Of a stretch of 42,857 bases of DNA, positions 9,746 through 21,620 are shown one piece after another. A model generated the notes under the pieces. The model was not told the DNA's origin. It ran no database searches and saw only the letters and a program-made list of their open reading frames with translations. The position numbers and the translations under genes were made by a program. Numbering within the stretch: the first letter of the stretch is position 1; every line of letters starts with the position of its first letter. Origin of the DNA: Acidobacteriaceae bacterium (GTDB lineage: Bacteria > Acidobacteriota > Terriglobia > Terriglobales > Acidobacteriaceae); NCBI GenBank assembly GCA_030037705.1, contig JASHQE010000323.1, positions 1 through 42,857 on the forward strand, given 5' to 3'.

Positions 9746-10109
9746 GATGGATCACCTGCCGACAGAGAAAAACGGGAACTGCTCGAACAATGGACGATAC
9801 AACGCGCGGAACCGCTTACTCGGTAGAGGGTTGAGCATCGATCTGGTTAAACGAGGTTTTTGGGATGTTGGATAAATGTTACTGTTAGTAACGTTAACGA
9901 CTGTAGCATGTAGAACGCCGATCGTCAACAGTCCCTTCTCAGGGGATTAAACCCACGGTAGCTTGGTCCGCGACGGATGATCGAACTGCGCTTGAACGGC
10001 AGGCGCTTGCGTGAGCCGGGAAAATTTCGAGTACACTCTCATCCCGTTCGGGATGGAATCGACCGCTTTGGCCAGGGTTGCCATCCAATGACAGTACAGT
10101 GACAAAGCC
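9746..10109. other. Divergent intergenic region between the receptor and the biosynthetic cluster
   Basis: This 364-base gap holds the operator cluster at 9878-9900 and should hold promoters for the minus-strand receptor and the plus-strand methyltransferase gene. I could not pick a convincing -35/-10 pair on either strand. No small coding frame with a good ribosome binding site was seen. Confidence 0.4.
9878..9900. promoter_or_regulatory. Candidate LacI-type operator, site 3, with overlapping palindromes
   Basis: GTTACTGTTAGTAAC at 9878-9892 is an inverted repeat with arms GTTAC and GTAAC. It overlaps TAACGTTA (9889-9896, a perfect palindrome) and ACGTTAACGA (9891-9900), and the last word is shared with site 2. 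The cluster lies about 145 bases upstream of the receptor start, in the divergent gap before the biosynthetic cluster. Confidence 0.42.
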
Positions 10110-11051
10110 ATGACAAGCCTTGCATTGGTGATTATTATGCTGACTCAGAACGAGAGGATCGCGGGGCGCGATTGCGCGGGTTCAAGGCCGGAAAGGAACA
10201 CCGGGGTGGGACGTTTCAGCACATTCCTGAAGCGCGTAATCACACAGACCGGTACAGCACCGTCTCCCGCAGCTATCCAAGATCTAAAAGTCCGTGATGC
10301 TTACTGGCTATGGGCGCCGACGTATGCGGTCGAAACGGCAGTCAGTGCACTCGACGAACAGTTGGCCGGCAAAATGCTTTCCGGCCTGCCCAAGAAACGG
10401 TTGCTGGATGCCGGATGCGGGACCGGGCGCCGGATGCAGAACATTCCGGATGCTGTTGGCATCGACCTGAGTCCGGAGATGCTCGCCGTGGGCAATGTAA
10501 ACAACGTCATCGTGGGCGATGTGCGGACGATGCCTTTCGAATCAAATCGCTTCGACATGGTCTGGTGTCGACTGGTGCTAGGCCATCTTCCTGATCCGCT
10601 GCGCGCATACCGCGAACTCTGCAGAGTCTGCATGCCAGGTGGATATGTCTTTGTCACTGATTTCCATCCCGATGCCGCCGCAGCCGGGCATCGCCGAACG
10701 GTCAGCGGTGAAAAAACGGCTGTATATGCGATTGAGCATTACGTTCACGATCATCACATCCAGTTTGCTGAAGAAACCGGACTTCATTTTGTGGACCACC
10801 GCGCTGGTATTGTGGGTCCATCGATTCGTGAGTTTTATCATCGCGGCATTGGCCTCAAAGCTTACAAGAGAGACATCGGCCTAAAGCTTGTTGCCGCTTT
10901 CCTGTTTCGCAAACCGGACGCTGCGGGGAAGCATCTTGCCAGCAGCGCATTGAGCCAGAACGCTGCGTCATGGGGCGCATTTCCATGCGACGGCTCTGCA
11001 GCGATCGCCTCAATGCCTGCAAACGATCAGGAGGACGCAGGGCGCATATGA
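10110..11051 (+). CDS. Class I SAM-dependent methyltransferase
   Basis: The protein has up to 313 residues and a Methyltransf_11-like Rossmann fold. Motif I is LLDAGCGTGRR near residues 98-108, followed by the acidic motif II (AVGIDLSPEM) and the post-motif region FDMVWCRLVLGHLPDPLRAY. It is the first gene of a tightly coupled set, and its TGA stop overlaps the ATG of the nucleotidyltransferase gene (ATGA at 11048-11051). The first roughly 35 residues are weakly typical. GTG 10206 has a better upstream AGGAA and is an alternative start. Its acceptor substrate cannot be read from the sequence; the context suggests a tailoring step on a small molecule. Confidence 0.82.
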   Translation: MTSLALVIIMLTQNERIAGRDCAGSRPERNTGVGRFSTFLKRVITQTGTAPSPAAIQDLKVRDAYWLWAPTYAVETAVSALDEQLAGKMLSGLPKKRLLDAGCGTGRRMQNIPDAVGIDLSPEMLAVGNVNNVIVGDVRTMPFESNRFDMVWCRLVLGHLPDPLRAYRELCRVCMPGGYVFVTDFHPDAAAAGHRRTVSGEKTAVYAIEHYVHDHHIQFAEETGLHFVDHRAGIVGPSIREFYHRGIGLKAYKRDIGLKLVAAFLFRKPDAAGKHLASSALSQNAASWGAFPCDGSAAIASMPANDQEDAGRI

Positions 11052-12421
11052 CCGAACTTGCCCATGTGAGGCGCCCGCATTGCTCCGAGCATTGCAATCG
11101 CCCGGCGCCGCAGAGGCCTGGAGTGGATCTATCCAGGATTTCATCGTCTTTGCGCGATGCCGCAGGACTGATGAACCTGAGCCGGAAACAGCGAATCCGC
11201 ATGGCGGTGTTCTCGAGCTTTTCAGAGCGGACCGCCGGTCACATCGAACTGCTATCCACGCTCTCTCCCAGAGAATGGAGTGGATTGCTCGACTGGCTGG
11301 ATGTCAGTGGTCTTGCGCTCTATTGGCTGGACCGGCTCGTTCAACTCGGTTTGCACAGTGCGCTGCCCCAAGCGGCAATCGACCGTCTGCAGCGGAACTT
11401 GGATGACAATACTGTGCGAACACGCGGCATGATCGACGAGTCCGTCTCCATCCAGCATGATTTCCAAACAGCCAACCTCTCTTACGCCGTGATGAAGGGC
11501 ATCTCGCTTTCTCCGGTGTCCGTGCCTCGTCCAGAGCTGAGACATCAGTTCGATCTGGACTATCTCATCGAGGAGAAAGATGCACCCGAAGCACGGCGGA
11601 TTCTCGAACGCAGAGGGTATCGTCTGTATGCCATCAGTGGTAAAAGCTGGGAGTTCAAGATCCATGAGACTCCGCACGTCTCCAGAAAGGACCTTTATAA
11701 AGATCTTCCATATCGTGGCGTGGAACTGCATCTGGAATCCGGCGCTCCGGGACAGGATTCAAGACTGGGCCGGGTGATCAAGCGCGAAATGTTCGGCATC
11801 GCCATGCCTGTGTTTTCTCCCACGGACCTCTTCCTCAGTCAGGCGCAGCACGCGTTCAAAGATCTATGCAGCGCTTTCGCGCGCGCGTCGCATCTACTTG
11901 AATTCTATCGTCATGTTCTTGCTCGTCACGATGACCAGCGTTTCTGGAACGAGCTGCGTATCGCGGCCGAAGGCAATCGGAGAACATGCATAGCCGTCGG
12001 CGCAGTTACATATCTGACCGGCGCGATCCTCGATGACTTGGATGATTCCGTCCCTCAGGCGCTCACGGCGTGGACCGTAAAAACTCTTCCTTCTGCAGTG
12101 CGGCTGTGGCTGGATCTATATGGCCGACGGGCTGTCGTCGCTGCGCACCCGGGAACCAAACTGCACCTTTTGCTGAAGCAGCAATTGGAAGCGGCGGAAG
12201 CGCCGGGAAAGCAGCAATTCAAGAATGTCCTGCTGCCGTCGCGTTTGCCGCCGGCCGTGATTCGCGCTTCGGCAGGTGAGACACTTTGGACGCGAATCGT
12301 CCGATATCGCGTGCAAGTCCGTTTTCTCTTATCACGCTTTCGATTTCATATTGTCGAGGGGACCCGCTATGCGACGGAGCTATACCGCTGGCGTCGCCAC
12401 CTGGATCAACTTGCACGGTGA
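11048..12421 (+). CDS. Nucleotidyltransferase-fold protein (PF14907-like)
   Basis: The 457-residue protein starts at ATG 11048, which overlaps the previous stop and has AGGAGG about 12 bases upstream. The central region has the PF14907 pattern: a KG pair (residues 150-151, YAVMKGISL), then RHQFDLDYLI with Asp169 and Asp171 as likely metal ligands, then RRILERRGYRL. Family members are uncharacterised nucleotidyltransferases often found beside HPr-kinase-like proteins in exopolysaccharide and lasso-peptide loci. An HPr-kinase-like gene is indeed encoded at 19.4-20.4 kb. The nucleotide and acceptor are unknown. It is translationally coupled on both sides. Confidence 0.75.
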   Translation: MTELAHVRRPHCSEHCNRPAPQRPGVDLSRISSSLRDAAGLMNLSRKQRIRMAVFSSFSERTAGHIELLSTLSPREWSGLLDWLDVSGLALYWLDRLVQLGLHSALPQAAIDRLQRNLDDNTVRTRGMIDESVSIQHDFQTANLSYAVMKGISLSPVSVPRPELRHQFDLDYLIEEKDAPEARRILERRGYRLYAISGKSWEFKIHETPHVSRKDLYKDLPYRGVELHLESGAPGQDSRLGRVIKREMFGIAMPVFSPTDLFLSQAQHAFKDLCSAFARASHLLEFYRHVLARHDDQRFWNELRIAAEGNRRTCIAVGAVTYLTGAILDDLDDSVPQALTAWTVKTLPSAVRLWLDLYGRRAVVAAHPGTKLHLLLKQQLEAAEAPGKQQFKNVLLPSRLPPAVIRASAGETLWTRIVRYRVQVRFLLSRFRFHIVEGTRYATELYRWRRHLDQLAR

Positions 12422-13257
12422 GCTCTTCCTTGAGACCCGCAGCACTTGCCTTTGACTCGGTGGCGCCCACGTTTGACGCGCGGTTTGGCGCCTGGGCCAG
12501 CGTGGCTGCGCAGCGCCGCGCAGTGCGCAGCGCGCTGCTTCAGCGGCTTCCATCCGGCTGCCGTGTACTGGAGATTGGCGGTGGAACGGGAGAAGATGCG
12601 GCATTTCTTGCAGAACATGGATTTGATCTGTTGCTGACCGATCCATCGCCGGCGATGGTAAAGCTGGCCGCTCAAAAACTGGCTCGCTTTGGATGTTCAG
12701 CCGAGGTCACGGCTGCAGAAGAGTTGGAGAACTTCGCAGAACAGTATCTTGCGGCCGGGAGGCCGCTGTTCGATGCGGCTTTTTCGAATTTTGCGCCGCT
12801 AAACTGCGTGGCGGATCTGGAGCCCGTCGCTCGCGGACTTGCGAAACTACTGCGGCCTGGCGGTGTTGCCATGCTGGTTATATTCGGCACATGCAGCCCT
12901 GGCGAAATGCTGGTGGAGACTCTCCGCGGCCGGCCGCGCCAGGCGTTCCGGCGCCGCAAACGCGGCTCGGTTCTAGCCATGCTGGCCAAACAGGATTTTC
13001 ATGTGGTCTATCATCGGCGTTCCGAACTTCTCCGCGCATTTGCCCCGTGGTTTGTGCTCGAAACATGTAAGGGTATAGGGATTGCCGTGCCTCCCAGCGC
13101 CGCGGAGCCGTGGATTTCAAATCATCCGCGTCTGCTTGCCGGTATGGAGAAACTTGACCGCGTGCTTGCCCGTCCGCTGGCAATGCTTGGAGACCACGTT
13201 CTATACCAGCTTCGGCGTGAAGAGACTTCGAGCCGAAGCGAGCGCGGCGTGCGGTAA
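12418..13257 (+). CDS. Class I SAM-dependent methyltransferase
   Basis: The 279-residue protein has the SAM-binding motif VLEIGGGTGEDAAFLAEHG, then LLTDPSPAMVKLA, and an acceptor region FDAAFSNFAPLNCV. The start is taken as GTG 12418, because it forms a GTGA overlap with the stop of the nucleotidyltransferase gene. An upstream ATG at 12286 would add 44 residues lying wholly inside that gene. No membrane segment is clear. It ends the first coupled gene set; a 130-base gap with hairpins follows before the GTP cyclohydrolase gene. The substrate is unknown. Confidence 0.82.
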   Translation: MSSSLRPAALAFDSVAPTFDARFGAWASVAAQRRAVRSALLQRLPSGCRVLEIGGGTGEDAAFLAEHGFDLLLTDPSPAMVKLAAQKLARFGCSAEVTAAEELENFAEQYLAAGRPLFDAAFSNFAPLNCVADLEPVARGLAKLLRPGGVAMLVIFGTCSPGEMLVETLRGRPRQAFRRRKRGSVLAMLAKQDFHVVYHRRSELLRAFAPWFVLETCKGIGIAVPPSAAEPWISNHPRLLAGMEKLDRVLARPLAMLGDHVLYQLRREETSSRSERGVR

Positions 13258-13318
13258 ACAATGCGACAATGCCGAGACATTCTGAAGACAACTATGCCAA
13301 GGCAAGTTCGTAGACTTC

Positions 13319-13363
13319 GCAGAGGGTGTCTCTGCTTGCAAGCTTACGCCTGCGGGCTGGCGT
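13319..13363 (+). promoter_or_regulatory. Two hairpins in the leader of the GTP cyclohydrolase II gene
   Basis: GCAGAG/CTCTGC (13319-13324 with 13330-13335) and ACGCC/GGCGT (13346-13350 with 13359-13363) form consecutive stem-loops about 25 bases before the TTG start. They could be a leader structure or the end of the upstream transcript. I compared the region with the FMN riboswitch consensus from memory and do not see it. Confidence 0.25.
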
Positions 13364-13387
13364 GAACCTGAGAGAGGACTGGTCTCA

Positions 13388-14092
13388 TTGATCACATTAA
13401 AGCAAGTCGCCGATATCAGCTTTCCGACGCGTTGGGCTCACTTCCGTCTGATAGCTTTCGAAGGCAGGCGGAGAATGCAGGATCAGAAAGCCGAATGTGT
13501 GGAGAACGCACAGGTTCTTGTGCTCGGCGACATTCATCAGTCCGCTCCGGTGATGCGCATCCATTCGCAATGCACGACCGGAGATGTGTTTCACTCGTTG
13601 CGCTGTGATTGTCACGATCAGCTTCATCTGGCGTTGCACATGATCGCGCAGGAGGGAAGAGGGATCTTATTTTATGAGCACCAGGAGGGCCGCGGAATCG
13701 GATTGATGGAGAAGCTGCGGGCCTATGCTCTGCAAGACAAGGGACGAGACACCATCGAAGCGAATCTTGAACTGGGACATCCCGTTGATCTTCGCGACTA
13801 CCAACTTGCCGTGGCCATTTTGCGCTACCTCAAAATTCCCGCCGTGCGCCTGATGACCAATAATCCGCAAAAAATTGCCGCAATGGTTGATGCGGGAATC
13901 GATGTGGTCGAACGTATCAGCGCAACGGTGCCGGGCTCTCCCTACTCCGCTCACTATCTTGCCGTGAAGCGCGAGAAGCTTGGCCATTTTTCGGATCGGG
14001 TAACGCCATACGCAGCAGTCTCTCCGCACGCAAAAGATGACATTCAGTTGACATTCCCGGGACAAGTGCATGGCTGGAACGGGCTAGGCTGA
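13388..14092 (+). CDS. GTP cyclohydrolase II (RibA-like)
   Basis: The 234-residue protein should open the imidazole ring of GTP, releasing formate and pyrophosphate to give a diaminopyrimidine. The zinc site is complete, with Cys62, Cys73 and Cys75 in HSQCTTGDVFHSLRCDC. The catalytic and substrate motifs are also present: EGRGIGL, RAYALQDKG, VDLRDYQLAVAILRYL and LMTNNPQK. It lacks the DHBP synthase (RibB) domain often fused to RibA. The start is TTG 13388 with GAGAGAGGA upstream, a choice supported by the lack of a better ATG. It sits between methyltransferase and radical SAM genes and no other riboflavin gene is near. It may therefore be a pathway-dedicated copy making a pyrimidine or pteridine-like scaffold; that is inference. 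Confidence 0.9.
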   Translation: MITLKQVADISFPTRWAHFRLIAFEGRRRMQDQKAECVENAQVLVLGDIHQSAPVMRIHSQCTTGDVFHSLRCDCHDQLHLALHMIAQEGRGILFYEHQEGRGIGLMEKLRAYALQDKGRDTIEANLELGHPVDLRDYQLAVAILRYLKIPAVRLMTNNPQKIAAMVDAGIDVVERISATVPGSPYSAHYLAVKREKLGHFSDRVTPYAAVSPHAKDDIQLTFPGQVHGWNGLG

Positions 14093-14190
14093 CTGGGTGA
14101 AATAGAAGCGCTGCAACCGATCCCATAGGGTGTCGTGCGTCTCTAGAGAGCGGAATCCGGGCAACAGTGCCCACTTGGCATAGTTGTAAG

Positions 14191-14217
14191 GTGGCTTTTT
14201 CTTAATGAAAAAGCCAC
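14191..14217. repeat. Hairpin repeat, copy 1
   Basis: GTGGCTTTTTC at 14191-14201 and GAAAAAGCCAC at 14207-14217 form a perfect 11-pair stem with loop TTAAT, about 100 bases after the GTP cyclohydrolase stop. A related hairpin lies at 31227-31259. No clean uridine run follows the stem on either strand. It may be a dispersed hairpin repeat or an unconventional terminator between this gene and the radical SAM gene. Confidence 0.5.
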
Positions 14218-14291
14218 TTGACGGTCGTGTTGTTGGGTACACCTGCTCGAATTCCGCTATAGCGCCACGGCGATGATCATCGGAGTCGATC

Positions 14292-15785
14292 TTGGCTGAC
14301 GTTTTGTTAACCCATTCGTATCATCTTCCCTTCGACCCGAAGCAGCTGCGAAAGATGCAGCCATATGCTCCCATTGGAACGCTGTATGCGGCCACCGCGC
14401 TGCGCGATCATGGAATCTCCGTAGCGGTGTTCGACGCCATGCTCGAGCCGCCGGCAGAAAAATTCCTGGTGACGCTCAAGCAGCAGCAGCCAAAGATCGT
14501 AGCCGTATATGAGGATGATTTCAACTTCCTGTCCAAGATGTGTCTCACGCGCATGAGGGAAGTCGCTTGGGATATCGCCAGAGCTGCCCGCAAAACAGGT
14601 GCAGTTGTGATTGTCCATGGCTCAGACTCTACCGACAATCCTGGCCTGTTTTTAGAAAATGGCTTTGATTATGTGCTTTGCGGAGAGGCAGAAGCTGTCC
14701 TGGTGAATCTTTGTGCGTCCATTTTATGCAAAGCCGAGATACCGGATCTCGATGGTCTAGTGCGCATGGACAGCCGGGAGCGCATGATCAGGAGCCCCCA
14801 GCGGCTGGCAAAGAACTCCGAATGGTCCACACTTTCTCTTCCCGCACGCGACCTGATCGATCTGGAGCCCTATCGCTCCGCGTGGCTCAATGCTCACGGC
14901 TATTTCTCCACCAACATGGTCGCAAGTCGCGGCTGCCCGTTCCGATGCAATTGGTGCGCGAAACCGATCTCGGGCAATCGATTCCATCTGCGGGACGCGT
15001 CTGCGGTTGCCGAGGAGATGGCGCTCTTGAAGCACTCCGGAGTCGAGCACATCTGGTTTGGCGACGATGTGTTCGCACTGGATCGTCATTGGGTAAAAGA
15101 TTTTGCAGCAGCGGTTCGGCTGCGGAACGCCGCACTGCCCTTCAAAATACAATCCCGTGCGGATCTGATGCGCGAGGATACAGTCTGCCATCTCAAGGCC
15201 GCCGGATGTACCGAAGTGTGGATGGGCGTCGAATCGGGATCGCAGGCCGTTCTGGACGCCATGGATAAAGGAATCACCCTCGACGCCGTAACCGCTGCAC
15301 GCGATCTGCTACGGAAAGCAAGAATTCGCGCTTGCTTCTTCTTGCAGTTTGGCTATCCGGGCGAAAGATGGGAAGAGCTTCAGCAGACCATTGCCTTCGT
15401 ACGACAGGCGCGTCCGGATGATATCGGGGTCTCGGTCTCCTACCCACTGCCGGGCACTGTCTTCTACCAACGTGTTCAGGCGCAACTTGGCGCAAAGCGC
15501 AACTGGCATGACAGTGATGATCTTTGCATCATGTTTAAAGGGGCCTATACGACTGACTTCTATCGCGCAGTGCGGGAGGCGCTCCATGCGGAAGTTGACT
15601 CGTGGCATCATACGGGCGATCAAGCCGAATCCATCGCCCGCGTCGCCCTGCTATGGAAGATTGTGGATGAACTGGAGCCGGTAAGCCGAGTTGCGGATGC
15701 ATTTGAGTTTCCCGGGACTACCCATCTTATCACACCCTCTTCAGTTGTTCCAGTCGAGCAATTGGCTTTGCTCAGGAGCACTTAG
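14292..15785 (+). CDS. B12-binding-type radical SAM protein
   Basis: The 497-residue protein has an N-terminal Rossmann-like domain of the cobalamin-binding kind (GTLYAATALRDHGISVAVFDA near residues 29-49, then DYVLCGEAE). A radical SAM domain follows, with the cluster-binding motif RGCPFRCNWC (Cys215, Cys219, Cys222). Later strands include EVWMGVESGS and YPLPGT. Such proteins methylate or rearrange unactivated carbons using SAM and usually cobalamin; the reaction here is unknown. The start is TTG 14292 with CGGAG a few bases upstream. The next gene begins directly after its TAG stop. It fits a tailoring enzyme of a natural-product pathway. Confidence 0.85.
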   Translation: MADVLLTHSYHLPFDPKQLRKMQPYAPIGTLYAATALRDHGISVAVFDAMLEPPAEKFLVTLKQQQPKIVAVYEDDFNFLSKMCLTRMREVAWDIARAARKTGAVVIVHGSDSTDNPGLFLENGFDYVLCGEAEAVLVNLCASILCKAEIPDLDGLVRMDSRERMIRSPQRLAKNSEWSTLSLPARDLIDLEPYRSAWLNAHGYFSTNMVASRGCPFRCNWCAKPISGNRFHLRDASAVAEEMALLKHSGVEHIWFGDDVFALDRHWVKDFAAAVRLRNAALPFKIQSRADLMREDTVCHLKAAGCTEVWMGVESGSQAVLDAMDKGITLDAVTAARDLLRKARIRACFFLQFGYPGERWEELQQTIAFVRQARPDDIGVSVSYPLPGTVFYQRVQAQLGAKRNWHDSDDLCIMFKGAYTTDFYRAVREALHAEVDSWHHTGDQAESIARVALLWKIVDELEPVSRVADAFEFPGTTHLITPSSVVPVEQLALLRST

Positions 15786-16766
15786 ATGGGGAAACACCGG
15801 TGCTCCTCCAATGCGTCGTGCGATCGAGCTGCTGGCGCCGTTGTTCGCTTGAGATGTCCGCGCTGCGAGGCCGACGTCGAGGAGCTGGCATGTTCGCTCT
15901 GCGCGTTCCGCATGGAGCTCCAGAACGGGATTATCCATGCGCTGCCTCCGGAGCGGAATGCTCATTATGCGAGATTTATTGAGGAATATGAGCACATTCG
16001 CGCGGCAGAAGGACGAGGAAGCCGAAGCGATGACTTCTACCTCGCTCTGCCCTATAAAGACCTGAGCGGACGCAACAGCGAACAATGGAAGATCAGGTCG
16101 CGAACCTACGACTGCCTGATCGGGCATGTGCTGAAACCGCTTTTGCATCAAGGCGCTTTGATACTCGATGTCGGCGCGGGCAATTGTTGGCTTAGCTTCC
16201 GCCTGGCGCGCCAGGGTTGCATGCCCGTAGCAGTCGATCTGGTTACCAACGAAAACGATGGCTTGGGCGCGTCCACGCATTATCACCAGCATCTATCAGC
16301 GCCTATTCCACGATTCCAGGCCGAGGCTGTGCATCTTCCCTTTCAGGATGAGCAGTTTGATGCAATCGTCTTCAATGCCTCATTCCACTACTCTGAAGAT
16401 TATGCGGCTACAATGCGCGAGGCCTTGCGCTGCCTTGCGCCGCGGGGAATGGTGATTCTCTGCGACACACCCTGGTATGCACGGGAAGAGAGCGGCCAAC
16501 GCATGATCGCTGAACGGCGTGTCGCATTTCGCCAGCGATTCGGAACCGCATCGGATTCCATGAAAAGCCTCGAATACCTGACAAACGCCCGGCTGCGCCG
16601 TCTCGAAGAGGAGCTTTCCGTTTACTGGACCATCCATCGTCCCTGGTATGGGTGGAAATGGGCATTACGCCCCTGGATGGCAAAGCTGCAGGGGCAGCGC
16701 GAACCATCCCGCTTCCGGATCTACGTCGCGAGGAAAGATGCATCCTTTTATCGATCCTGCAGATGA
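15786..16766 (+). CDS. SAM-dependent methyltransferase with N-terminal zinc ribbon
   Basis: The 326-residue protein starts immediately after the radical SAM stop. It opens with a CxxC...CxxC segment (LRCPRCEADVEELACSLCAF, near residues 22-41), which resembles a Trm112-like or zinc ribbon. A class I fold follows, with motif I ILDVGAGNCWLSFRLARQG and acceptor region FDAIVFNASFHYSED. The last 29 bases overlap the amidohydrolase gene, which indicates coupling. The target is unknown. The zinc ribbon is unlike the other two methyltransferases of the cluster, so it probably acts on a different substrate. Confidence 0.82.
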   Translation: MGKHRCSSNASCDRAAGAVVRLRCPRCEADVEELACSLCAFRMELQNGIIHALPPERNAHYARFIEEYEHIRAAEGRGSRSDDFYLALPYKDLSGRNSEQWKIRSRTYDCLIGHVLKPLLHQGALILDVGAGNCWLSFRLARQGCMPVAVDLVTNENDGLGASTHYHQHLSAPIPRFQAEAVHLPFQDEQFDAIVFNASFHYSEDYAATMREALRCLAPRGMVILCDTPWYAREESGQRMIAERRVAFRQRFGTASDSMKSLEYLTNARLRRLEEELSVYWTIHRPWYGWKWALRPWMAKLQGQREPSRFRIYVARKDASFYRSCR

Positions 16767-18009
16767 AGGAGTCCTGTTTCTCGATGGCGTCCGCTACGCT
16801 ATTGGACCGCGCGACTCCATACGATGCTCTCTGGAGGTGGCAGGTGGCCGGATGCGGCGCGCCGCGCGTCAACGTTCCGGCCCGCTCGCTCAATCCACCA
16901 GCATCGACCTGAGCGGTTTTCTGATCTTGCCGGGGCTCATCAATGCGCACGACCATTTGCAGTTCGCTTTGTTTCCCAGGCTGGGGAATCCACCCTACAG
17001 CAGCTACATCGAGTGGGGAGAGGATATTCATGCCGCATTCCCCGAGATCATCGCAAAACAGAAAGAAGTGCCGAAGCGAGTGCGGCTTTGGTGGGGTGGC
17101 GTCCGCAACCTGCTCTGCGGAGTTACAACCGTCTGCCACCACGATCCACTGTGGCCAGAGCTGCAGAGCGGGGATTTTCCAGTCAAAGTAGTGCAGCAGT
17201 ACGGATGGGCTCACTCCTTTGCGCTGGGAGGCGATCTGCGTGCGGCACGCTCTGCTACACCCGACGGAAGCCCCTTCATCGTACATGCGTGTGAAGGAAT
17301 AGATGACTTGGCGAAGGAGGAACTTCGCGGCCTCGACCAGCTCGGCGTTCTGGATGGGAACACCGTGCTGGTGCATGGCCTGGCGATGGATGATGTGGGC
17401 ATCGCTTTGATGCGGGAGAGGAGAACTTCGCTTATTGTCTGCCCATCGTCGAATTACTTCCTCTTTGAGAGATTGCCTCATTTAGAGCGCCTTCAAGCGA
17501 TTGAGAACATCGCATTGGGAAGTGATTCGCCCCTGACCGCAACGGGAGACCTGCTGGATGAGATTCGTTTCGCGATCGACTCTTGCCATCTTCCGCCCGA
17601 TGCCGCTTACCGCATGGTTACCACGGCTCCGGCGGCGATCTTACGCTTGTCCAATCAAGAACTGTCCGCGGCGGCCGATCTGATTGCGATTCAAGATACA
17701 GGCGAGACGATGGCCGACAGGCTGCGCACTCTTTCCATGAGCGATATAGAGTTCGTGATGATAAACGGCAAAGTTCAGCTCGTTTCAGAAGCGGTCCTGG
17801 CTCTGCTTCCGAAGACAATGAAGCAGGGTCTTGAGGCCTTGTGGGTCGATGGAACGATACGCTGGCTGCGCGCTCCCGTCGAGGAGCTTTTACGAAGCGC
17901 GGAAACGGTGCTTGGTTCCGGTGAGGTGCGGCTGGGAGGCCGTTCGATCAGGCAGCCGAGTAAGACACGCCGAAACGAATTGCCTGTTCCCTGTGCAGAG
18001 TGCATCTAA
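16738..18009 (+). CDS. Metal-dependent amidohydrolase (ATZ/TRZ or deaminase-like)
   Basis: The 423-residue protein starts at ATG 16738, with AGGA seven bases upstream and inside the methyltransferase end. Amidohydrolase-superfamily ligands are visible: His71 and His73 in NAHDHLQF, His183 in IVHACEG, His213 in LVHGLAM and Asp263 in ALGSDSPLT. An extra HH pair lies at 134-135. The N-terminal and C-terminal strands form the usual small beta domain. Relatives deaminate or dechlorinate purines, pyrimidines, triazines or adenosyl compounds. Beside a GTP cyclohydrolase II, a deaminase acting on a GTP-derived heterocycle is an attractive but unproven idea. It is coupled to the glycosyltransferase by TAATG. 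Confidence 0.82.
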   Translation: MHPFIDPADEGVLFLDGVRYAIGPRDSIRCSLEVAGGRMRRAARQRSGPLAQSTSIDLSGFLILPGLINAHDHLQFALFPRLGNPPYSSYIEWGEDIHAAFPEIIAKQKEVPKRVRLWWGGVRNLLCGVTTVCHHDPLWPELQSGDFPVKVVQQYGWAHSFALGGDLRAARSATPDGSPFIVHACEGIDDLAKEELRGLDQLGVLDGNTVLVHGLAMDDVGIALMRERRTSLIVCPSSNYFLFERLPHLERLQAIENIALGSDSPLTATGDLLDEIRFAIDSCHLPPDAAYRMVTTAPAAILRLSNQELSAAADLIAIQDTGETMADRLRTLSMSDIEFVMINGKVQLVSEAVLALLPKTMKQGLEALWVDGTIRWLRAPVEELLRSAETVLGSGEVRLGGRSIRQPSKTRRNELPVPCAECI

Positions 18010-19310
18010 TGGCGCATTTTGGCGTGCTTTCCTATAAGGGGACAGGGCATCTGAATCCACTCCTGGCCCTCTCGAGACGATTGTTGTCCCGGGGACACAA
18101 GGTGACGTTTTTCCAGCATCCAGACCTGGAGACGCTTGTGCGTAACAACGGTTTCGACTTCCAGCCAATCGATGCGTTTCTTTCCGCGGGCGGCAAACGG
18201 CCGCCGGTGAAGACAGGCCGGAACGGGATTCTTGCGCGGATCAGTGATATCCGTTACCGGCTTGATCGCATCACGAAGGAGATGGGGAGGTTCCTGCAGG
18301 AGTACCCTCGAGCAATTCGAACTGCAGGAGTGGACGCGCTCATCCTAGGGGAAATCTCTCTGGCCGGCCCGACAGTAGCGGAGTGGCTGCGTGTGCCCTA
18401 TTTCATTGTGTCCACGTCGATTCCCCATAACTTTGGCTGGGATGCTCCTCGATCGATCCTTTCACCTTCATGGCTGGGGCGCATGGAGAGGGAACTCCTG
18501 GAAGTCTCCGTATTGCGCATGAAAGGACCTTTGCGCCGCAATCTGGATCGATATAGAGAATCGCTCGGCCTTGGATCGGTGCGCAGAATCGACAAAACGT
18601 TTCCCGCATTGGCACACATCACGCAATGGCCGCAGTGCCTTGAAATTCATCGCTCCAAGTTACCTGCCAATTTCCATTACACCGGACCGTTCGTTGACGA
18701 GGGTGCGAGAAGCGTCGTGGAGTTTCCCTGGGAGCGGCTTGACGGCAGGCCGCTGATCTACGCGTCGTTAGGAACAACTCGAAAAGGTGATCCAGCAATC
18801 TTTCATCGGATCGCCGATGCTTGCAGGAGACTGAACTTGCAACTGACTATCTCTCTCGGCGGACGGCATGATCCGGCTCTCTTCGCTAGCCTGCCGGGAG
18901 ATCCAGTGGTAGTCGGAAATGCTCCGCAACTCGATCTGATCAAGCGGGCATCCATCGTGATTACGCATGCTGGGCCGAATACGGCGCTCGAGGCGCTCCT
19001 GCACGGAAAGCCCATGCTCGCGCTTCCGATGGTGCTGGATCAACCGGCGGTTGCAACTCGCCTGGCCAGATTCGGAGCGGCTGAGGTGCTTCGGATGCAG
19101 GATCGTTCCACGGAAGAGATTAGAGCCGCGTTAGCAAAGATCAGGAACGATTCCCGCTACCGGGAAGCTGCTCAGAAGCTGCAAGGCCAGATAGCACCCC
19201 TCCGCGGCGCAGATCACGCGGCAGACATCATCGCAGAGTCATTAACTCCAGATCGATGCAGTTCCAGAACTTCCGGGATTACGAAGGATGCAACTCTGAT
19301 AACCTACTGA
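18009..19310 (+). CDS. UGT/MGT-like glycosyltransferase (GT1)
   Basis: The 433-residue protein starts at ATG 18009, overlapping the previous TAA (TAATG). The N-terminal half begins MAHFGVLSYKGTGHLNPLLA, like macrolide and zeaxanthin glucosyltransferases. The C-terminal half carries the nucleotide-sugar-binding signature: PLIYASLGTTRKG, then GNAPQLDLIKRASIVITHAG, NTALEALLHGKPMLALPM and DQPAVATRL. It should transfer a sugar from a UDP- or TDP-donor to a small hydrophobic acceptor in the cytoplasm. It is the last plus-strand gene of the coupled set and is convergent with the HPr-kinase-like gene 42 bases away. The aglycone is unknown. Confidence 0.85.
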   Translation: MAHFGVLSYKGTGHLNPLLALSRRLLSRGHKVTFFQHPDLETLVRNNGFDFQPIDAFLSAGGKRPPVKTGRNGILARISDIRYRLDRITKEMGRFLQEYPRAIRTAGVDALILGEISLAGPTVAEWLRVPYFIVSTSIPHNFGWDAPRSILSPSWLGRMERELLEVSVLRMKGPLRRNLDRYRESLGLGSVRRIDKTFPALAHITQWPQCLEIHRSKLPANFHYTGPFVDEGARSVVEFPWERLDGRPLIYASLGTTRKGDPAIFHRIADACRRLNLQLTISLGGRHDPALFASLPGDPVVVGNAPQLDLIKRASIVITHAGPNTALEALLHGKPMLALPMVLDQPAVATRLARFGAAEVLRMQDRSTEEIRAALAKIRNDSRYREAAQKLQGQIAPLRGADHAADIIAESLTPDRCSSRTSGITKDATLITY

Positions 19311-19352
19311 TCTCCGCATCGACGATTCTCTTTTGGCCGAAGGATAAATACT

Positions 19353-20390
19353 TTAGAGTGCCCGCACCAGAAGCTCCAGTTGCTCAATCCCCTCATCCAG
19401 AACACAATAATGCAACTCGAACACGGGAACTGCGTTCAGCCTTTCGAGTACCTTCTCGTGCCTGGCGCGTATCTCGCCCGCCGAATAAAGCTCCTGACTC
19501 ATGCGCTTGGCCGCGCTGCCGTGGGGCAGGCGAATCAAATTTGCCTTGGCTCCAGTGTACCTGTTGAGATACACAACCGAACCTACTTCGACCTCGGTTG
19601 CGGTATCAATCGACGGCAATTCACGAACCAAGATCTCGATAGAGGGCTTGCCTTCCATGCGCGGCGTGATCGCGCGGTTTTCGAGCTCCGGAAACAGTGC
19701 TTTGGCATGAGGCCGGAAGCGCATGCGATGTGCGTGCCCGATGACCTGAGGCGTCTTCGAAGCATTGATCAGGTAACAGGTGTCGTCCGAGGTATAGGTC
19801 CACCCAGCCCGCGCGCATGCATACGAAAGAGTCGATTTTCCGGCGCCTGAATGACCGCAAAGGAGAATGCCTTTTCCTTCCTTACTGACACAGGCGGCGT
19901 GGATGTCAGTAACGACTGTGGCGCCTAGCAAAAGATAAACGACTTTTTCCAGGAAGTTGTAGCGAAAGTAAAGTTGGCTCTGCAACGCAGCTTCACTCAG
20001 CCAAACGAAGTTGCCCGACGTGCGAAGATCGAGGAGCGCTTGATTATCCGCATTTGCCACAAGCGAATACAGGTGGTTAAACTCACGGCGTGTCGGCTCC
20101 GGCGGAAGTTGCGTGTCACTGGTCGTCGTCACTCCAACACGGACCACGAGTCCTGCATCTTCATGCCGTAGTTGCCTGTGGCCGAAGCTTTCATGGGCGG
20201 CATCCAGAACCTCAGGGTGATTGGTAAGAATCTCGATGCCAAAACCGAGCGGATAGAACATCCCCCGCAAAGGCAGCTTCACATCGCACAGGAGAGAGTC
20301 CTGCGGCCTGACAGCGCCTTCCTGATTACGCTGTTGTGGCTCTGCCGCTTCGATGAACGCGCCACTCATTGCTTCATGCATCATTTCCAT
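19353..20390 (-). CDS. HPr-kinase-like P-loop protein (HprK-related)
   Basis: The 345-residue protein has a beta-rich N-terminal part and a C-terminal HPr-kinase-like P-loop domain. The Walker A motif is GHSGAGKS (179-186) in GILLCGHSGAGKSTLSYACA. The following WTYTSDDTCYLI carries SDD (201-203), typical of HprK relatives. True HprK acts on the PTS protein HPr; this protein lacks the normal HprK N-terminal domain and has no PTS neighbours. HprK-like kinases accompany nucleotidyltransferases in exopolysaccharide and some lasso-peptide clusters, where a few phosphorylate peptide products. It is transcribed against the cluster. The substrate is unknown. Confidence 0.8.
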   Translation of the reverse strand: MEMMHEAMSGAFIEAAEPQQRNQEGAVRPQDSLLCDVKLPLRGMFYPLGFGIEILTNHPEVLDAAHESFGHRQLRHEDAGLVVRVGVTTTSDTQLPPEPTRREFNHLYSLVANADNQALLDLRTSGNFVWLSEAALQSQLYFRYNFLEKVVYLLLGATVVTDIHAACVSKEGKGILLCGHSGAGKSTLSYACARAGWTYTSDDTCYLINASKTPQVIGHAHRMRFRPHAKALFPELENRAITPRMEGKPSIEILVRELPSIDTATEVEVGSVVYLNRYTGAKANLIRLPHGSAAKRMSQELYSAGEIRARHEKVLERLNAVPVFELHYCVLDEGIEQLELLVRAL

Positions 20391-20675
20391 GAATTGAGTG
20401 CAGCTTCTTCCGGAATCCGGGAATAGTCACGCCGGAGACGTTGCAAAGCACCCCTTCCCCTGCGAGTGAACTGAACTATTGCAGCTTAGCTGAACACGCA
20501 AGCGGAAGTGTCATGGAATTGTCGCTGTTCGCAGCCTCTTCGTTCGATCCCTCTCGGCGCTTGCCGCCGCTTTCACGCCGGTCACAGGAGTGACAATCCT
20601 TTGACAAAGCAGAGATGGCTGCGGGACATCAGCCGGTTCATGGGTTGCTAACGTGGACATGCTGGTACGGGATGA
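20391..20675. other. Divergent gap between the HprK-like and PhyH-like genes
   Basis: This 285-base gap should hold both promoters. A 26-codon plus-strand frame at 20513-20593 (begins MELSLFAASSFDPSRR) has GGAAG five bases before its ATG. It matches no peptide family I know, and I do not call it a gene. No hairpin terminator was seen. Confidence 0.3.
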
Positions 20676-21620
20676 ATGAGGATGAAGGCTTTCCACGCAT
20701 TTCATGCGAACCGATTGACGCCGGGTGAACTGCGAGCGCACATCCATTCGAAAGGCTATGCGCTCATTCACGATCTGTTGCCCCAGGGTGCGGTCCGCTC
20801 CGTATTGGTGGATATCACCCGTCTATTGTCTGCCGCGAACTGGCTGAAACCAGGCATCGATCCGCTGCAACGCATCCCACTGGATGGTGCTGCCTATGGC
20901 GACCCCGATCCGATTTTCAAGCAGGTCTATCAACAGATCTTCAATCTCGAGTCCTTTCATTCGTTGCCGCATCATTCATCGCTGCGAAATGTGATGCGGA
21001 TGCTCGCCGGAGATCAGGTGCTGATTCATCCGAAGCCGATTGGCCGCTTGATCTTCCCCAACTGCGAACGTCTCGTTGTGCACGCACATCAGGACTACGA
21101 GTTCATGCGTGGCGACCCCGAGTTCTTCACAGTATGGATACCGTTGCATGACTGCCCTGTGGAGGCAGGACCACTTCGGATTCTTGCCGGCTCCCACCGC
21201 TTCGGCTTCCAGAAGCACGCGAGAGAAAACCTGCACGTGCCGGAGATTCCTGCCGACGCGCTTATGGGCGACGAGTGGTTTGGCGGTCCTCTCAGCGCCG
21301 GCGATGTGTTGATCTTTCACAGTCTGACGGTTCATGCTGCATCTCCCAATCTGTCGGAGCAAATGCGCATCTCGCTCGACATTCGATTCCAGGACGCGCG
21401 CCGCGAGCTGAATCCTTCGAACCTCGTATTTGCCGGCGAGTCAGGGAAATCCTGGGAAAAAACCTATGCGAACTGGCAATCAGATGAATTGAAGTTCTAC
21501 TGGAAGAACTTTCCTCTCACATTGAATCCATCGAAGGAAAAGTTGGAACAGCTAGCGCAGACGGCCGAATCTCCGTCAGCGCGTGCAAGATACTCCCGCA
21601 TCGTCAGCCAAATTTCATAA
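20676..21620 (+). CDS. Phytanoyl-CoA dioxygenase-like Fe(II)/2-oxoglutarate oxygenase
   Basis: The 314-residue protein has the double-stranded beta-helix of the PhyH family. Iron ligands are visible as His138-x-Asp140 in VVHAHQDYEF and distal His220 in HSLTVHAAS. Arg231 or Arg237 in RISLDIRFQ could bind 2-oxoglutarate. Such enzymes hydroxylate small molecules, including natural products. It is divergent from the HprK-like gene and convergent with the GH2 gene 44 bases away, so it probably has its own promoter. Its position at the cluster edge suggests a tailoring step, but membership is not certain. Confidence 0.85.
   Translation: MRMKAFHAFHANRLTPGELRAHIHSKGYALIHDLLPQGAVRSVLVDITRLLSAANWLKPGIDPLQRIPLDGAAYGDPDPIFKQVYQQIFNLESFHSLPHHSSLRNVMRMLAGDQVLIHPKPIGRLIFPNCERLVVHAHQDYEFMRGDPEFFTVWIPLHDCPVEAGPLRILAGSHRFGFQKHARENLHVPEIPADALMGDEWFGGPLSAGDVLIFHSLTVHAASPNLSEQMRISLDIRFQDARRELNPSNLVFAGESGKSWEKTYANWQSDELKFYWKNFPLTLNPSKEKLEQLAQTAESPSARARYSRIVSQIS

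Follow-up and report, generated by a model that had tools for sequence, protein, structure and literature searches.

The window analysed here, a 42,857-nucleotide contig from an Acidobacteriaceae bacterium, carries at positions 10110–21620 a cluster of ten genes that includes an accessory GTP cyclohydrolase II (GCH2). The cluster is real and conserved: it is a set of about nine genes side by side, and its core is kept in the same order in 11 genomes. We propose, with moderate confidence, that it is an accessory specialised-metabolite module that draws on riboflavin synthesis. Its product is most likely a riboflavin-pathway-derived, methylated and glycosylated metabolite of the envelope or for export, although its chemistry is something that we infer from gene families. 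An earlier note had listed the ten genes and their families, and all ten were present in our open reading frame (ORF) and profile scans (a Pfam scan of the 27 window ORFs, plus TIGRFAM cut-offs). The genes, and the predicted operator sites among them, are:

10089..10115, + strand: operator 1, three tandem TGACA units with an 11-bp period, upstream of the MT1-NTP-MT3-GCH2 unit
10110..11051, + strand: MT1, class I S-adenosylmethionine (SAM) methyltransferase; ORF start overlaps operator 1; in 3 of the 11 clusters
11048..12421, + strand: NTP, NTP_transf_5 nucleotidyltransferase-fold protein (PF14907, 98.8 bits); start set by the ATGA junction, ORF from 10970
12418..13257, + strand: MT3, class I SAM methyltransferase; start at the GTGA junction, ORF from 12286
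13388..14092, + strand: accessory GCH2; TTG start; GTP_cyclohydro2, 192.7 bits
14038..14064, + strand: operator 2, within the 3' end of GCH2, 239 bp ahead of rSAM1
14292..15785, + strand: rSAM1, B12-binding and radical SAM enzyme; TTG start
15786..16766, + strand: MT6, class I SAM methyltransferase with an N-terminal CxxC/CxxC stretch
16738..18009, + strand: amidohydrolase (Amidohydro_1) of the deaminase-like TRZ/ATZ/guanine-deaminase group; ATG at 16738, ORF from 16648
18009..19310, + strand: GT1, GT1-type glycosyltransferase, MGT/UDPGT-like; start inside the TAATG junction
19353..20390, - strand: HprK, HprK-like P-loop kinase-fold protein, convergent to GT1
20509..20524, - strand: weak operator with 1 mismatch, upstream of HprK
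20591..20606, + strand: operator 3, 70 bp ahead of PhyH
20676..21620, + strand: PhyH, PhyH-family 2-oxoglutarate/Fe(II) oxygenase; found in 11 of 11 cluster genomes

The core order is NTP, MT3, GCH2, rSAM1, MT6, amidohydrolase, GT1 and reversed HprK. (We write G000 for the window's genome, G001 and so on for other genomes, and L0xx for contig loci.) Besides the window's genome, this order is found in G005, G035, G013, G006 (over two contigs), and G001, and at loci L040–L045 and L063. By their coordinates, L042 is G001 and L044 is G006, which leaves 11 distinct genomes, from Acidobacteriaceae and related Acidobacteriales. One carrier, Acidicapsa dinghuensis 4GSKX, is cultured. The repetition of the core order in 10 other genomes is more than chance would give, and as the earlier note had expected of a true cluster, the neighbours are kept with the accessory GCH2. 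GCH2 lies between MT3 and rSAM1 in all 11 genomes. NTP is in 10 of the 11 clusters (none was seen in L040), PhyH lies at varying ends of the cluster, and MT1 is optional, with a 26-residue remnant in L035. We call this form of the cluster type A, and we call the other loci with rSAM1 homologs, most of which have further radical-SAM genes, type B. Within the genus, an extra GCH2 is present in 6 of 36 genomes, and type A rSAM1 is found in exactly those six. (Several of the 36 genomes are incomplete, so absences there are uncertain.) Type B rSAM1 is found in two further genomes of the genus, G004 and G014. With a threshold of 1e-80, type A genomes of the genus have one match to the rSAM1 family and type B genomes have two.

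The GCH2 of the cluster is not the housekeeping enzyme. The window's genome encodes three PF00925 proteins: a standalone RibA of 217 amino acids (on contig C221), the window's GCH2, and a RibBA (on C152). So a riboflavin ribA does exist elsewhere in this genome, a point on which the earlier note had made its idea depend. In a tree of 38 GCH2 sequences, 12 accessory sequences, from the 11 cluster genomes and from Edaphobacter lichenicola (L047), are split from the 26 others by a 100/98 branch. The separate RibA, the RibBA, and this accessory clade together rule out that the window's GCH2 is a plain housekeeping ribA. Five relatives from the genus have a second, closer GCH2 (62–65% identity). 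Against the 26 other copies, the GCH2 of the cluster shows 50–57% identity across the stretch that matches. The accessory GCH2 is probably functional as an enzyme, as homology and intact catalytic residues suggest that it opens GTP to the diaminopyrimidine precursor. The window's protein is above the curated cut-off of TIGR00505 (220.5 versus 205.85 bits), and all 12 accessory sequences, like all 26 others, retain the zinc cysteines and the Tyr, Asp, and Arg positions. At the six active-site positions that we checked, whose roles and numbering we take to be those of E. coli RibA, the accessory proteins match the housekeeping copies. We also noticed that the GCH2 half of RibBA (L003 802–2106, G000:C152) looks degenerate, with the central EGRxIGL/RAYALQD stretch missing; similarly weak partial GCH2 matches occur in many genomes of the genus.

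The second branch of riboflavin synthesis is also linked to the cluster. An extra RibB, with a full 3,4-dihydroxy-2-butanone 4-phosphate (DHBP) synthase domain, lies within or near the cluster in 7 of the 11 genomes, and RibBA and lumazine synthase are linked in an eighth. Specifically, a standalone RibB adjoins PhyH in L036 and L037; in G001 and in Acidicapsa, RibB and GCH2 share a contig and are 13–15 kb apart; and in G006 and G063 RibB is on a contig piece that also holds NTP and PhyH. In G065, RibB lies at a contig end, and its linkage to the cluster is deduced, as this contig carries the same two-component block. In L040, RibBA and a lumazine-synthase-family gene take the place of standalone RibB. 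Within the genus, 4 of the 6 genomes that have the extra GCH2 also have a standalone RibB, versus 1 of the 30 that lack it (Fisher p = 0.0012). The exception is G027, whose RibB shares only about 50% identity with the cluster RibBs and lies on a 5.4-kb contig where no further cluster gene was matched. As GCH2 is accompanied by extra RibB or RibBA, both entry branches of riboflavin synthesis seem to have been recruited. And this linkage in 8 of 11 genomes makes a GTP-derived product more likely, which strengthens one part of the earlier idea of a methylated, glycosylated, GTP-derived heterocycle; the rest of that chemistry is deduced from the enzyme families. We also considered that lumazine synthase duplication might be a general feature, but we found a single strong copy in 15 of 16 genomes checked and none in G061. 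Extra copies are limited to a weak fragment in G018 and divergent or broken copies in G060, one of which is beside the cluster.

A conserved stretch after GCH2 led us to a motif, TGACA-N6-TGACA, often with a third unit. The sixteen type A sources contain 46 exact sites in 261,856 bases (three are probably double-counted, from overlapping contig ends of one genome, L043 and L126). In a count over 254,901 bases of type A loci, the 46 sites compare with a mean of 0.53 and a maximum of 2 in 30 first-order simulated sets. The 73 type B loci contain 18 sites in 1,186,363 bases. When we varied the spacing from 0 to 20, N6 gave 46 sites, N17 (the third repeat) gave 36, and all others gave 0–2. At 45 of 48 sites, a cluster-related gene on the same strand starts −5 to 254 bp downstream (as measured from homology starts, not mapped starts, and considering query genes only); the other three sites face off a contig end. 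The genes behind the sites are MT1, MT3, NTP, rSAM1, PhyH, RibB, GT87, g11, and an ABC transporter. RibB is preceded by an operator at 5 of 7 loci. Exact sites are missing at some relatives' units, and in L040 they are found before MT3 only, with 1-mismatch sites flanking its RibBA/lumazine-synthase gap on both sides. In the window, operator 2 has an exact TGACA-N6-TGACA and one mismatch in the third unit. In an alignment of eight GCH2–rSAM1 gaps, the operator-like stretch alone stands out by its conservation; in the window, it is read as the C-terminal tail of GCH2. The gap in the window also holds an inverted repeat, GTGGCTTTTTC...GAAAAAGCCAC at 14191–14217, which is in the window only among the eight gaps compared.

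The same operator occurs in an exopolysaccharide locus. Of the nine exact sites in the window's genome, four are in the cluster, one is before g11/Wza on C270, and four are elsewhere. The C270 locus (L138, 7540–19235) encodes an OmpR-type regulator, a sensor-kinase homolog, a Wzy-like protein, a cupredoxin-like protein, the outer-membrane-like g11, and Wza. Its regulator is 79% identical to the cluster-linked regulator in G001, and the linked locus has a Response_reg/Trans_reg_C gene. In several relatives, the cluster itself lies beside Wza/Wzz genes and g11, and 1-mismatch sites precede Wza in five loci. OmpR/PhoB-family operators, including the Pho box, are likewise described as tandem direct repeats with an 11-bp period in the parts of PMC4415409 and PMC4832192 that we cite. 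Read on the opposite strand, TGACA matches the core of the E. coli CTGTCAT box. Unlike the Pho box, the sites here are linked to exopolysaccharide and metabolite genes, and regulator binding is predicted. We considered an operator private to the cluster, but we rejected this: in a survey of 22 genomes of the genus and 14 of the order, the motif also turned up in other genomes of the genus and, in abundance, in a single genome of another family (12 exact sites in G042). In G002 the sites are in the homologous exopolysaccharide locus and in G009 beside one, with other sites before unrelated genes. Our reading is that the operator belongs to an envelope regulon which the cluster has joined. Since the operator is common to the cluster and to exopolysaccharide genes, the product probably acts at or outside the envelope.

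We propose that GCH2 would open GTP to give the diaminopyrimidine precursor, while the extra RibB of most relatives would turn ribulose 5-phosphate into the four-carbon partner. Housekeeping enzymes would then build the ribitylaminouracil/lumazine skeleton. The B12-radical-SAM enzyme, the methyltransferases, the deaminase-like amidohydrolase (by deamination or hydrolysis), PhyH, and GT1 would convert this skeleton to a methylated, hydroxylated glycoside. An OmpR/PhoB-type response regulator, probably from the linked exopolysaccharide locus, would control the module via the tandem TGACA operators, so that it would be switched on jointly with the exopolysaccharide genes. As the set is compact, conserved, and taxonomically bounded, with a cultured carrier, a recognisable operator, and an evolutionary intermediate (L047, below), both the product and the switch are directly testable.

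Dedicated GCH2 enzymes have precedents. For the products of the toxoflavin (tox) and pseudoiodinine (psd) clusters, synthesis is proposed to begin from GTP with a dedicated GTP cyclohydrolase II, and methyltransferases are present, as in our cluster; the psd operon suffices for pseudoiodinine production in P. putida (all from the cited part of PMC9911603). The toxoflavin parallel drawn in the earlier note is weak beyond this, because psd carries a RibD-like gene, a WD-40 protein, and a sulphatase-modifying-factor protein, and none of these was found among the 27 window ORFs. Conversely, the B12-radical-SAM enzyme, amidohydrolase, GT1, and PhyH of the window, and the RibB of its relatives, set our cluster apart from psd as described in that part of the paper. 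Relative to RibA, RibB, RibBA, and RibH of the riboflavin pathway itself, the checked GCH2 catalytic positions and the full DHBP synthase domain are kept, but unlike riboflavin genes, the cluster copies are paralogous and sporadic, lie in a run with tailoring enzymes, and have no detected riboswitch. To our knowledge, few specialised products start at GTP cyclohydrolase II, and the GCH2-initiated systems compared here rest on other tailoring genes than these. Our searches of open-licence PubMed Central papers gave no description of this cluster, nor any paper that combines GCH2, radical SAM, biosynthetic gene cluster, and amidohydrolase.

The cluster also points to a larger multi-radical-SAM family across several phyla, for which these paper searches likewise gave no description. 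Our search for the rSAM1 family gave at least 545 confirmed stretches, of which we kept the best 80; 73 of these are type B (L046–L062 and L064–L119, from Acidobacteriota, Bacteroidota, Ignavibacteriota, Chloroflexota, Gemmatimonadota, and others). Their rSAM1 is 45–63% identical to that of the window cluster. Among these 73 loci, 56 have one or more further radical-SAM genes, 54 have MT3, 30 have MT6, 30 have MT1, 29 have a SPASM enzyme, and 25 have the amidohydrolase; GT1 and PhyH had no match, and GCH2 is found only in L047. (Many type B loci end at contig edges, and their gene content differs from phylum to phylum.) The radical-SAM proteins of L047 and L046 match TIGR04072, HpnJ, and BchE, all below the cut-offs. 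In nine acidobacterial type B loci, 15 of the 18 operator sites precede rS0, rS1, or HprK. So the earlier note's description of a cluster built around GCH2 fits only in part: GCH2 is in all 11 genomes, but the older core is the B12-radical-SAM/methyltransferase/amidohydrolase set, which is widespread without GCH2.

In a tree of rSAM1 (47 sequences), the 10 type A sequences form one clade (99/94) with L047 as the sister (100/99), and this group is nested among acidobacterial type B sequences. This nesting indicates that the cluster derives from the widespread multi-radical-SAM cluster. L047 has the accessory GCH2 and the complete multi-radical-SAM set, with GT87, which argues that GCH2 was no simple replacement for those genes. 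GCH2 probably joined first, late in the history of the multi-radical-SAM cluster; then the other radical-SAM genes were probably lost, and GT1, PhyH, and RibB added. A more specific version of our proposal, which we consider possible but doubtful, is that a widespread and apparently undescribed multi-B12-radical-SAM pathway was rewired: riboflavin entry enzymes joined, with GCH2 first as in L047, several radical-SAM steps were no longer needed and dropped out, and an O2-dependent oxygenase was added. The outcome would be a new class of flavin- or lumazine-derived glycoside that is made with the exopolysaccharide matrix.

Several observations weigh against a riboflavin-derived product. The nearest homologous cores have neither GCH2 nor RibB, so what the rib genes supply may not be the skeleton. 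In L047, GCH2 stands with a complete radical-SAM set and so is no simple substitute for those genes. We found no extra RibB in G000 (85% complete), G005 (100% complete), or G061. Nor did the scan of the 27 window ORFs reveal a gene for RibD or for the modification of lumazine or flavin. We rejected control by a flavin mononucleotide riboswitch, as Rfam gave no match in the window and, for seven type A loci, a tRNA alone. The operator, too, is shared more widely: in the genus, genomes that lack type A have as many as 9 exact sites (G002, G009), and G042 of another family has 12.

We also considered that, when the locus is on, the additional GCH2 and RibB boost the supply or secretion of flavin, for cofactors or extracellular redox chemistry, while the radical-SAM/methyltransferase/amidohydrolase/glycosyltransferase core makes an unrelated product. 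This is possible but doubtful. The core is widespread without rib genes, GCH2 stands beside a complete multi-radical-SAM cluster in L047, linked loci encode cytochrome c and cupredoxin-like proteins, and GCH2 and RibB head the two branches, which makes them a natural pair for flux control. Against it, GCH2 is embedded among the biosynthetic genes, with MT3 on one side and rSAM1 on the other, in 11 of 11 genomes, and the type A lineage has kept GCH2 while other radical-SAM genes vanished.

Alternatively, the cluster might be a module for exopolysaccharide decoration. It would then produce or alter a building block of the glycan, and NTP_transf_5, HprK, GT1, and GT87 would work on a sugar carrier. 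The placement beside Wza/Wzz and g11 in several relatives fits, as does the operator before g11 (exact) and Wza (1 mismatch). Also, an NTP_transf_5 homolog (38% identity) lies beside Wza and exopolysaccharide genes in G002, a genome without the cluster. In our main reading, too, NTP_transf_5 is probably part of the neighbouring exopolysaccharide locus, and HprK perhaps as well. But the cluster (C78) and the exopolysaccharide locus (C270) are on separate contigs in the window's genome, and we know of no usual role in glycan synthesis for GCH2, RibB, a B12-radical-SAM enzyme, or a deaminase-like amidohydrolase. We consider this explanation unlikely.

It is also improbable that the duplicated riboflavin enzymes confer self-immunity to a product that attacks riboflavin synthesis. 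The precedent is flavophos, which attacks lumazine synthase: there too a duplicated riboflavin-pathway gene lies inside a metabolite cluster, and its lumazine synthase, BsfB, is dispensable for production and confers resistance (cited part of PMC12871164). The separate clade of accessory GCH2 would fit. But flavophos has a single lumazine synthase for immunity, whereas here GCH2 and RibB, and so two or three different pathway enzymes rather than one target, are duplicated, in another gene context. GCH2 is inside the biosynthetic run, its six checked active-site positions match the housekeeping copies, and no phosphonate-synthesis family matched among the 27 window ORFs.

A cluster for a ribosomally synthesised and post-translationally modified peptide, such as a lasso peptide modified by HprK and the nucleotidyltransferase, is very improbable: HPr-kinase homologs and nucleotidyltransferases do tailor lasso peptides (cited part of PMC8498205), but the 27 window ORFs have no Pfam match to a lasso leader protease, cyclase, or asparagine-synthetase-like protein, and the conservation that stands out in the eight GCH2–rSAM1 gaps is that of the operator-like stretch (other gaps had no systematic check for short ORFs), which in the window encodes part of the GCH2 tail, so we rejected a precursor there. 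We also rejected anti-phage defence, for which PADLOC gave generic methyltransferase and radical-SAM matches only.

Returning to the layout of the window, junctions of the kinds that the earlier note described, and two more, are there: ATGA at 11048 (MT1/NTP), GTGA at 12418 (NTP/MT3), TAG-ATG at 15783–15788 (rSAM1/MT6), the amidohydrolase ATG at 16738 overlapping MT6, and TAATG at 18007–18011 (amidohydrolase/GT1). Coupling does not extend to the whole set, as there are gaps of 130 bp before and 199 bp after GCH2; and with HprK encoded on the minus strand and PhyH standing as a unit of its own, not all the genes are in one operon. For MT1, NTP, MT3, and the amidohydrolase, the start of the longest ORF is probably too far upstream. 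For MT1, the overlap with operator 1 implies that the true start is probably downstream of 10110.

Some profile scores are below their cut-offs. HprK (24.2 bits) is below the Pfam cut-off of 33.3, and GT1 scores 158.5 bits against TIGR01426, below its cut-off of 260. rSAM1 is below the curated cut-offs of TIGR04072 (lipid B12-radical-SAM; 108.1 versus 360) and HpnJ (105.3 versus 577.6). It is nearest to AprD4 and a tryptophan methylase, and the nearest solved structures to the amidohydrolase are deaminase-type amidohydrolases; these matches fix the substrate of neither enzyme.

The cluster is on contig 78 of a genome of 5.13 Mb in 332 contigs that is about 85% complete. To its left are a LacI regulator, a sugar transporter, a DUF5107/TPR protein, and an outer-membrane beta-barrel receptor; to its right are a GH2 enzyme, a second such receptor, NAGLU, and his genes.

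Finally, we noticed other genes with these operators. Small cupredoxin-like and cytochrome c genes adjoin g11 with tandem operators in L143 and L146 (G002 and G005), and the same pair is near some type A and type B clusters, as a recurring periplasmic redox set. Operators also lie ahead of a secreted-looking family (QHYxxTNL...NPWG) in L142, L145, and L148 (G002, G008, and G009), which is a possible further member of the regulon.

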